Shown: piece after piece, positions 51,185-53,780 of the stretch
Position numbering within the stretch: position 1 is the first letter of the stretch
Layout: every line of letters begins with the position of its first letter
NCBI RefSeq assembly: GCF_900143015.1
Contig: NZ_FSRT01000001.1
Span: 1,984,001 to 2,048,000, forward strand
DNA: 64,000 bases
Direction of reading: 5' to 3'
DNA from: Fibrobacter sp. UWB11
GTDB taxonomy: Bacteria > Fibrobacterota > Fibrobacteria > Fibrobacterales > Fibrobacteraceae
The notes under the pieces: generated by a model
What the model was told of the DNA's origin: nothing
The model's input: only the letters and a program-made list of their open reading frames with translations
Databases searched by the model: none
Made by a program: the position numbers and the translations under genes

Positions 51185-52576
51185 ATGAGTGACGAAATTA
51201 AAGAAGAAACGAAAGAAAGAGTAAATCCGTTTTTAACGCCTGTCAAAATTATCGAGCCCAAGAACAAGCTCCCCGATTATACGTTTGATATGCTCCCCGA
51301 AGAACAGAAGGCTATTCTCCGGGAACACGGCTGGACCGAACTGATGCCTGTCCAGCGCAAATCCATCCCTTACATGCTCGCCGCCCGCGATATGCTCGTG
51401 CAATCGAAGACGGGTTCGGGCAAGACGGGCGCATACGCCCTCCCGCTTTTGCAGGTCATTGTCCGTGACCATCCGTATCCGCAGGCACTTATCCTTGTGC
51501 CGACTCGAGAACTCTGCATCCAAGTGCAAGAAGAATTCGAAAAACTCTCGAAGGGTACCGGCATCAAGTCTGTCGCCATCTTTGGCGGCGTGAGCTATGA
51601 ACCGCAAATCAAGGCACTCCGTTCCGGTGTACATGTTATCGTCGCCACTCCAGGCCGTTTGATGGACCATATCCAGCGCGGTAACGTAGACTTGCTTTCC
51701 ATTCGCGACCTCGTCCTTGACGAAGCCGACGAAATGCTCTCAATGGGTTTCTACCCCGACATGCAGAAGATCCGCAAGTACTTGCCGAAGGCAATCTCTT
51801 GCACAATGTACAGCGCCACGATTCCGCAAACGGTCAAGAGCCTTGCCCGCGAATTCCAGCGTCCGGGTGCCGATTTCCTTTCGCTCAGCTACGACAAGGT
51901 CATCGCAAACAACCTCGAACACCGCTACTACACTTGCGACGTGATGGAAAAGGATTCCATGACCATCAAGGTTCTGGAATACTACAATCCTGAAAGTTGC
52001 ATGATTTTCTGCAACTACAAGCGCGACGTGAGCTACCTCGAACAGGTGCTTTCCGGTTACGGTTTTGAAGTTGGCGCATTGAGTGGCGACGTGGCGCAGA
52101 GCCTCCGCGAAAAGACACTCAACGCCTTCCGCGACAAGAAGCTCAAGATTCTCATCTGCACAGACGTTGCCGCCCGCGGTATCGACGTGGACCACGTGAC
52201 GCACGTGATTGTCTATGACCACCCCGCCGACCACGAAGTCTATGTGCACCGCAGCGGACGTACCGCCCGTGCAGGCCGCAGTGGTCTCTGCATTTCGCTC
52301 ATCACACCGGTCGAAGAAATCGATTTGCGCCAGACTGCAGTTGATTTCGGTATCAACTTCATCAAGATGGACCCGCTCACGAACGACGAAATCGCAAAGA
52401 AGGTGAGCGAACGTACCAAGGTCCGCCTCGAAGAAGTCCGCAAGCACTTCGGCGGTCAAAAAGCAACCGAACGCATCAGCCGCATGCTCCCGCTCGTAAA
52501 AGACCTTGCGAACGGCACGACCGACGACCAAATGCTACTTGCCTACCTGCTCGACAGATTCGCATGGAAAAAGTAG
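51185..52576 (+). CDS. DEAD-box RNA helicase
   Basis: 463 residues. All core motifs are present: Q motif near MPVQRKSIPYMLA, motif I QSKTGSGKTGAYALP, Ia PTRELCIQ, Ib TPGRLMDH, II LDEADEML, III YSATIP, V DVAARGIDVDHV and VI HRSGRTARAGRSG. The C-terminal extension is short and basic. It unwinds RNA duplexes, for example in ribosome assembly or mRNA turnover. Its TAG stop lies within the left G-rich repeat of the element that follows, so the original stop context has been replaced. Confidence 0.95.
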   Translation: MSDEIKEETKERVNPFLTPVKIIEPKNKLPDYTFDMLPEEQKAILREHGWTELMPVQRKSIPYMLAARDMLVQSKTGSGKTGAYALPLLQVIVRDHPYPQALILVPTRELCIQVQEEFEKLSKGTGIKSVAIFGGVSYEPQIKALRSGVHVIVATPGRLMDHIQRGNVDLLSIRDLVLDEADEMLSMGFYPDMQKIRKYLPKAISCTMYSATIPQTVKSLAREFQRPGADFLSLSYDKVIANNLEHRYYTCDVMEKDSMTIKVLEYYNPESCMIFCNYKRDVSYLEQVLSGYGFEVGALSGDVAQSLREKTLNAFRDKKLKILICTDVAARGIDVDHVTHVIVYDHPADHEVYVHRSGRTARAGRSGLCISLITPVEEIDLRQTAVDFGINFIKMDPLTNDEIAKKVSERTKVRLEEVRKHFGGQKATERISRMLPLVKDLANGTTDDQMLLAYLLDRFAWKK

Positions 52577-52605
52577 GTTACAGGTTTTAGGTTGTAGGTT
52601 TTAGG
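52573..52605 (+). repeat. Left G-rich terminal repeat of the four-helix-bundle element
   Basis: Thirty-three bases of a 7-8 base unit: GTAGGTTA, CAGGTTTT, AGGTTGT, AGGTTTT, AGG. It begins one base before the TAG stop of the helicase and ends three bases before the ATG of the four-helix-bundle gene. The right repeat (52984-53017) is its imperfect inverted partner. Confidence 0.75.
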
Positions 52606-52608
52606 AAA

Positions 52609-52995
52609 ATGCGAGAATACCATTCTCTTGAAATATGGAAAAGAAGCCATCAATTCACACTTAATGTGTATGAATTGACTAAAACCTTTTTTCCAAAAGA
52701 AGAACTTTTTGTTCTAACCTCACAACTTAGACGATCTGTAACATCAATTCCAACTAATATCGCAGAAGGTTGTGGAAGAAAGACAAATACTGAATTAGCA
52801 AGATTTCTTCAGATATCACTAGGTTCTGCGGCTGAATCAGAATATCAATTACTACTTGCAAAAGATTTACATTACATAAGTGACGATATTTTTAACAAGT
52901 TTAATTCAGAAATCATCGAAATAAAGAAAATGCTCAACGCGTTTATTCAACATCTACCCCCAGATGCAAAATCTGAAATTAAACCTAACCCCTAA
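52609..52995 (+). CDS. Four-helix-bundle protein (TIGR02436 / 23S rRNA intervening-sequence type)
   Basis: 128 residues. Hallmarks are LEIWKRSHQFTLNVYEL, LTSQLRRSVTSIPTNIAEG, LARFLQISLGSAAESEYQLL and a last helix IIEIKKMLNAFIQHL. Relatives occur inside rRNA intervening sequences, as free-standing genes, and as Avd accessory proteins of diversity-generating retroelements, where they bind nucleic acid. No reverse transcriptase or rRNA is near. The gene is AT-rich with many TTA, AGA and ATA codons, unlike the GC-richer codon use of its neighbours. Its last four residues (KPNP) are encoded by the right terminal repeat. This suggests a transferred element. Confidence 0.9.
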   Translation: MREYHSLEIWKRSHQFTLNVYELTKTFFPKEELFVLTSQLRRSVTSIPTNIAEGCGRKTNTELARFLQISLGSAAESEYQLLLAKDLHYISDDIFNKFNSEIIEIKKMLNAFIQHLPPDAKSEIKPNP

Positions 52996-53017
52996 CACCT
53001 ATTACCTAATTCCTAAC
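52984..53017 (-). repeat. Right terminal repeat of the four-helix-bundle element
   Basis: On the plus strand: CCTAACC, CCTAACA, CCTATTA, CCTAATT, CCTAAC. It is inverted relative to the left repeat (52573-52605), overlaps the end of the four-helix-bundle ORF, and stops one base before the ATG of map. Confidence 0.75.
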
Positions 53018-53018
53018 A

Positions 53019-53780
53019 ATGGCTAAGATCAAAGTAAAATCCGCAAAAGAAATCGAACTGATCCGCGATGCCGGCGCTCTCGCTGCCGAAACGCTGATCC
53101 GTGCGGGCGAAATGTGCAAGCCCGGCGTCTCCACGCTCGAAATCGATGAATTCATCGGCGACTACACTCGCCAGCACAAGGGCATCTCCGCATGCATGGG
53201 CTACCACGGTTACCCGCGTTATGCCTGCATCAGCATCAACGAAGTTGTCTGCCACGGCATCCCGAACGCAAACACCATCCTCAAGGATGGCGACATCGTG
53301 AACATCGACATCACGACAATCCTCTCCGGCTACCACGGTGATACCTCCGCCATGTTCTGCGTCGGCAAAGTTTCTGACATTGCCCGCGAACTCGTGGACA
53401 CGGCCAAGTTCTGCATGGAAGAAGGCATCCGCGCTGCAGGCGAAAGAGGCGCCCACTGGAACGACATCGGCTGCGCCATTCAGGACATCGCCGACGAACA
53501 CGGCTTTAGCGTTGTCGAAGACTACTGCGGTCACGGCATCGGTCGCGGCTTCCACGAAGAACCGACCGTCTACCACTTCCGCAACTACGAACGTTGCCCG
53601 TTCATCGAAGTTGGTAACGTGTTCACTGTCGAACCGATGCTCAACGTCGGTCGCCCGGGAACGAAGACTCTCGCTGACGGTTGGACCGCAGTGACCCGTG
53701 ACGGCTCTCTCAGTGCCCAGTGGGAACACACCGTCGTCAAAACCAAGGATGGCATCGACATCCTGACGCTTCCGCGATAG
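53019..53780 (+). CDS. map: Methionine aminopeptidase, type I
   Basis: 253 residues. It removes the initiator methionine. Metal ligands are all present: the two Asp in GDIVNIDITTILSGYHGDTS, His in GHGIGRGFHEEPTVYHF, Glu in NVFTVEPML and Glu in SAQWEHTVV. SINEVVCHGIPN carries the conserved His of the active site. Upstream of the ATG there is only the C-rich repeat of the preceding element. Its own promoter and ribosome site must therefore have been displaced, or map is now served by upstream transcription. Confidence 0.95.
   Translation: MAKIKVKSAKEIELIRDAGALAAETLIRAGEMCKPGVSTLEIDEFIGDYTRQHKGISACMGYHGYPRYACISINEVVCHGIPNANTILKDGDIVNIDITTILSGYHGDTSAMFCVGKVSDIARELVDTAKFCMEEGIRAAGERGAHWNDIGCAIQDIADEHGFSVVEDYCGHGIGRGFHEEPTVYHFRNYERCPFIEVGNVFTVEPMLNVGRPGTKTLADGWTAVTRDGSLSAQWEHTVVKTKDGIDILTLPR

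Follow-up and report, generated by a model that had tools for sequence, protein, structure and literature searches.

A probable IVS-type mobile element with matched inverted heptamer arms between a helicase gene and map in Fibrobacter, with apparent relatives across many bacterial phyla

Between the genes for a DEAD-box helicase and methionine aminopeptidase (map) of Fibrobacter sp. UWB11 lies what is probably a compact mobile element of the rRNA intervening sequence (IVS) type, set between protein genes and composed of an S23p gene with matched inverted heptamer arms, whose protein would recognise its own heptamer unit. Sequence comparisons place relatives in a wide range of bacterial phyla, where the heptamer differs from lineage to lineage, and the long-puzzling heptamer repeats of bacteria may thereby be explained. 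The window analysed comprises 64,000 nucleotides (GCF_900143015.1, contig NZ_FSRT01000001.1, positions 1,984,001 to 2,048,000). Within it, the whole element is 445 bp long and AT-rich (52574-53018), with the following features.

51185..52576, + strand: DEAD-box helicase, the upstream host flank (orthologous junctions in congeners)
52574..52605, + strand: left arm, 4.6 copies of the 7-bp unit TAGGTTN (period-7 matches 20/25)
52609..52995, + strand: S23p gene, 128 aa, 23S-rRNA-IVS-type four-helix bundle (PF05635, TIGR02436; profile matches, AlphaFold)
52982..53018, - strand: right arm, TAGGTTN unit in reverse complement, repeated about 5.3 times
53019..53780, + strand: map (methionine aminopeptidase), the downstream host flank, adjoining the right arm

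The initial annotation had described a 128-residue TIGR02436 gene between inverted G-rich and C-rich arrays. This is confirmed by the profile scores of S23p (PF05635, 134.7 bits, cut-off 33.8; TIGR02436, 138.1 bits, cut-off 24) and by the arms themselves, which consist of TAGGTTN and its reverse complement. However, the period is exactly 7 rather than the 7-8 bases given there, and the arms measure 32 and 37 nt instead of 33-34. The left arm reads TAGGTTA CAGGTTT TAGGTTG TAGGTTT TAGG (52574-52605), and the right arm, reverse-complemented, TGTTAGG AATTAGG TAATAGG TGTTAGG GGTTAGG TT (52982-53018). As had been claimed, the helicase reading frame is terminated by the first TAG of the left arm (52574-52576). 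The right arm does encode the last S23p residues (PNP, followed by the stop codon), but it extends right up to the map ATG at 53019, where a gap of one base had been reported. The GC content is 0.33 in the element versus 0.49 over the whole window, and the excess of A/T-ending codons seen earlier is evident from a GC3 of 0.21 in the S23p gene versus 0.67-0.72 in neighbouring genes. At this single locus, the arm match has a score of 17, which was attained in 2 of 2000 dinucleotide shuffles; taken over all loci, the pattern lies far outside what chance would give.

The host genome (3.76 Mb) contains two PF05635/TIGR02436 genes in all. The sole other member (L002) shows the same layout with a different unit (TAGTCAT/TTGGTCA): the stop codon of the upstream gene lies inside the left array, and the right array finishes beside the downstream start codon. 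Because this locus repeats the helicase–map layout with another unit, the heptamer is no fixed signal. The earlier description of the ends as one TAGGTT-type sequence does not hold: 133 distinct units were found among 211 non-redundant arrays.

Comparison of the flanks of family genes, as the initial annotation had proposed, identified period-7 arrays in 69% of flanks at 132 loci of the phylum, versus 0-2% for periods 5, 6 and 8-11. An array is present on at least one side at 113 of these loci and on both sides at 70, and 19 are without a clear array on either side. In 71 loci from related genomes, flank autocorrelation is raised only at 7 (0.42, 0.37) and 14, with other periods at 0.24-0.30. 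We also analysed a wide set, the best-scoring 80 loci of a larger set, which spans Bacteroidota, Chloroflexi, Acidobacteria, Verrucomicrobia, CPR bacteria, an archaeal MAG and others; here 47% of flanks are periodic at 7, 11% at 8 and 1-3% at most other periods. In these best-scoring 80 loci from many phyla, the mean arm match is 18.6 within elements versus 9.2 between elements, and none of 10,000 permutations gave a mean above 10.8. Runs of N inflate the single scores of two wide-set loci (L223 and L253), and many loci were drawn from metagenome-assembled genomes. The original observation is real and general.

The arrays also share a base composition. The strand reading inward from each end has 11% C and 31% G, and G exceeds C in 182 of the 211 arrays. 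A meaning of the G-rich left arm for gene orientation was dropped because a palindrome reads alike on both strands. We likewise rejected mutation targeted to a single position within the unit, which would resemble mutagenesis by diversity-generating retroelements (DGRs) (top-position mismatch share 0.43 versus 0.37 expected). At three loci (L016, L020 and L033), short GC-rich palindromes such as GCTAGGCGAAGCCTAGC lie beside the left array, upstream, and are a separate kind of hairpin.

S23p genes flanked by heptamer arrays occur likewise on named cyanobacterial plasmids. On plasmids of Pseudanabaena (L283) and Anabaena 90 (L288), the gene and its arrays lie between cas6 and cas4 in CRISPR-cas operons, and in the operon of L288 a cas1d of type I-D is annotated. 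No S23p relatives were found in GenBank phages. In IMG/VR, 33 putative viral contigs (L299-L331) carry relatives, most of them bordered by a heptamer arm on one or both sides, and such contigs are possible vehicles for transfer of the element.

The suggestion that the element moves as one piece is well supported by comparison of related loci. In one group (L171/L174, L173 and L175), elements that are 82-86% identical occupy three junctions unrelated to one another (dnaK–dnaJ, ABC transporter–pth and a third site), and DNA homology among them is confined between the outer edges of the left and right arrays. Because the homology blocks stop at these edges, the arms travel with the gene. Of 10 congeners, 8 have a precisely empty dnaK–dnaJ junction, just a few bases long, and 1 has the element there. 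In the remaining one, the closest congener (L290), TAACTCTCAACTATACTAAG after the end of dnaK resembles a right-arm remnant. The helicase–map element is present in 3 of the 24 congeners examined, the host genome included, and a fourth carrier (L122) was found afterwards. Precise empty sites, which had been named as a check on mobility, are present at this junction as well: it is empty in several congeners (stop codon plus 0-3 nt) and holds gene-less arrays of different units in others. In its terminal inverted repeats and precise empty sites, the element resembles insertion sequences and DNA transposons. No target-site duplication was recognised at the helicase–map and dnaK–dnaJ junctions, which span just a few bases and vary from species to species, and the element encodes no transposase or recombinase, S23p being its sole gene.

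Between tandem genes, 98 elements lie in sense and 3 in antisense orientation, a bias that could reflect mere selection for expression. In the phylum set, the left array starts at a median of 5 nt after the upstream stop codon and the right array ends at a median of 18 nt from the next start codon; the corresponding values for the wide set are 1 nt before the stop codon and 8 nt from the start codon. In the predicted RNA fold the two arms pair (z -3.75), so that the element has the complementary ends and the one long stem around the ORF that characterise IVSs.

The heptamer unit follows the protein. For elements that occupy different sites and share no flanking sequence, similarity of the right arms rises with protein identity: the arms are alike in 1-3% of pairs below 60% identity, in 21% at 60-70% and in 67% above 70% (n=12). 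Pairs with 80-90% protein identity agree fully in their consensus unit in 85% of cases at the same site (n=65) and in 100% at different sites (n=8, some of these being a single site truncated by a contig end), versus a baseline of 0.3% for unrelated proteins. Units are shared in these pairs despite differences of 42-49% at fourfold-degenerate sites, and the unit thus stays the same within a lineage and is subsequently exchanged on both arms. The proteins of L029 and L161 are about 73% identical to those of L024, L030, L036 and L037, and their units differ at 4 of 7 positions; from the sequences, this difference looks to be a recent unit switch on both arms. With dN/dS of 0.06-0.15, copies at different sites included, S23p is under purifying selection. 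The proposal that the protein recognises the repeated ends is favoured, since the unit goes with the protein lineage and is preserved to a much greater degree than fourfold-degenerate sites, although homogenisation among copies, not protein recognition, could be part of the cause of this conservation.

The AlphaFold model of S23p is a confident four-helix bundle (pLDDT 92.5). Its nearest folds in the PDB are 2gsc (XCC0516; TM 0.82-0.87) and 2rld, each of five chains; Avd from the DGR of a Bordetella phage (4dwl) comes next. The pI is 6.9, not basic, compared with a family median of 9.1, which counts against the preferred explanation. A role as a defence system was rejected, as no PADLOC family was identified.

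Arrays without a gene are far more numerous than the elements. In 800 kb of the host genome we identified 53 period-7 arrays, 49 of them intergenic although the sequence is 90% coding; control periods gave 0-3 intergenic arrays each, the multiple 14 excepted. A strong inverted partner lies within 150 nt of 14 of the 49 intergenic arrays and of none of the random pieces, and all 16 arrays with at least a moderate inverted partner have the same C-poor inward polarity. Congeners contain up to 82 matches to the TAGGTTN pattern and up to 88 to ACGAGAG, many genomes having none, and the reversed control patterns gave one match in total. Gene-less arrays are more numerous where a gene-bearing element shares their unit (p 5.5e-5 and 0.03, with kinship ignored and one cross-control also positive, p 0.01). 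The initial annotation had held that arrays at many loci without the gene would speak against mobility. Such arrays are indeed found at many loci, and with the same units as the elements they fit gene-less derivatives and do not refute movement. At a lysS–lolC/E-like junction (L127, L131, L133, L136, L149 and L152), two heptamer units are nested, as if one element had landed in the remains of another.

In the explanation we consider probable, the element inserts in the sense direction, in the narrow space that separates one gene's stop codon from the start codon of the next, and an insertion so placed would impose little cost on the operon. It would be transcribed with the host mRNA, and base pairing between the arms would give a long stem that RNase III probably trims, as happens with rRNA IVSs. 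S23p, which has the Avd fold, most likely recognises the heptamer unit of its own lineage and in this way would define what moves. With no nuclease-like, transposase-like or reverse transcriptase (RT) domain encoded in the element, strand transfer probably falls to host enzymes. Copies that have lost the gene may persist as small heptamer hairpins, possibly mobilised in trans.

The count of 49 gene-less intergenic arrays in 800 kb, against two S23p genes in the whole genome, could also mean that hairpins come first, with replication slippage and template switching between the arms (quasi-palindrome correction) building arrays at junctions and S23p a passenger in hairpin loops. Template switching would account for matched arms, and the nesting of different units at one junction fits this order of events, but neither the tie of the unit to the protein lineage across unrelated sites nor the transport of the arms with the gene, as shown by homology ending at the outer array edges, is expected from it. 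Moreover, no other convincing cargo gene was found between long-range matched arrays in the 800 kb, and we regard this origin as unlikely.

A route through RNA, in which RNase III cuts out the element RNA and an RT acting in trans copies it back to DNA with S23p as an Avd-like partner, draws on the fold of S23p, the strong sense-strand bias and the IVS precedent. RTs (PF00078), however, are absent from the complete host genome and from 62 of 80 congeners, many of these carrying elements, so dependence on an RT was rejected. Membership of a DGR was rejected too, the Avd model scoring 23 bits, far under its cut-off of 80, and this route appears improbable. We give very little credence to a non-mobile regulatory cassette, in which an ordinary resident gene is accompanied by arrays serving as terminator-like, RNA-stability or translation signals. 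The arrays do adjoin stop and start codons, and a report on Beggiatoaceae proposes TAACTGA heptamers as translational signals (PMC4679880). Yet empty sites, occupancy that varies between close genomes and the same element at unrelated loci contradict regulation as a complete explanation, whereas a regulatory side effect is possible.

The preferred reading, an S23p element that recognises its own arms, would give one testable answer to two old puzzles, the purpose of the S23p/IVS protein and the origin of bacterial heptamer tandem repeats. It also suggests a mobile element that lacks a catalytic gene of its own and recognises its ends in a lineage-specific, co-evolving manner, and it predicts that each S23p prefers its own heptamer. 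More tentatively, as a generalisation that could go either way, there may be a widespread mobile class whose ends, in place of a fixed sequence, are arrays of a freely evolving 7-bp unit that corresponds between the two arms and evolves together with a non-catalytic protein of the Avd type. The rRNA IVSs would be its rRNA branch, and the orphan heptamers of Cyanobacteria, Xanthomonas, Beggiatoaceae and others its gene-less derivatives. In the part of the literature searched, we found no paper that joins S23p/IVS elements to heptamer repeats, and an earlier description is possible.

Among known systems, the 23S rRNA IVSs of Leptospira and Coxiella (PMC4990558) are similar in their PF05635 protein, their size (428-444 nt versus 445 nt here), complementary ends forming one stem around the ORF, heptamers adjoining the ORF and sporadic distribution. 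In the Coxiella IVS, GACAGAT heptamers stand in tandem ahead of S23p, and RNase III cuts its 28-bp terminal stem in vitro (PMC4990558); because of these heptamers and this stem, rRNA IVS elements share the heptamer-arm architecture. Unlike them, the helicase–map element is inserted between protein genes and not inside an rRNA gene, and none of 7 conserved 23S words occurs in any locus retrieved. The family here also differs in its full inverted heptamer arrays, lineage-varying units, many sites and gene-less relatives. The Avd proteins of DGRs (PDB 4dwl, 8ube) resemble S23p in fold (TM 0.70-0.73 by query length), but the helicase–map element has no RT, TR or VR and falls below the Avd model cut-off. 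MITEs and REPINs with RAYT transposases (PMC3116915) likewise comprise small palindromic gene-less elements beside rarer gene-bearing relatives; in contrast, there is no transposase here, and the ends are lineage-specific heptamer arrays, not a fixed terminal sequence.

Finally, tandem 7-bp units in intergenic DNA, the hallmark of STRR-type repeats, are present here. Intergenic 7-bp tandem arrays near stop or start codons have been reported as the STRRs of cyanobacteria, as TAACTGA of Beggiatoaceae (PMC4679880), as GGGAATC of Xanthomonas, often in inverted pairs (PMC4692102, which also covers Nostoc), and as heptanucleotide families of Geobacter (PMC2700814). In the parts searched, these papers connect the arrays with no gene, mechanism or mobile element, whereas here the arrays are the ends of a gene-bearing element.
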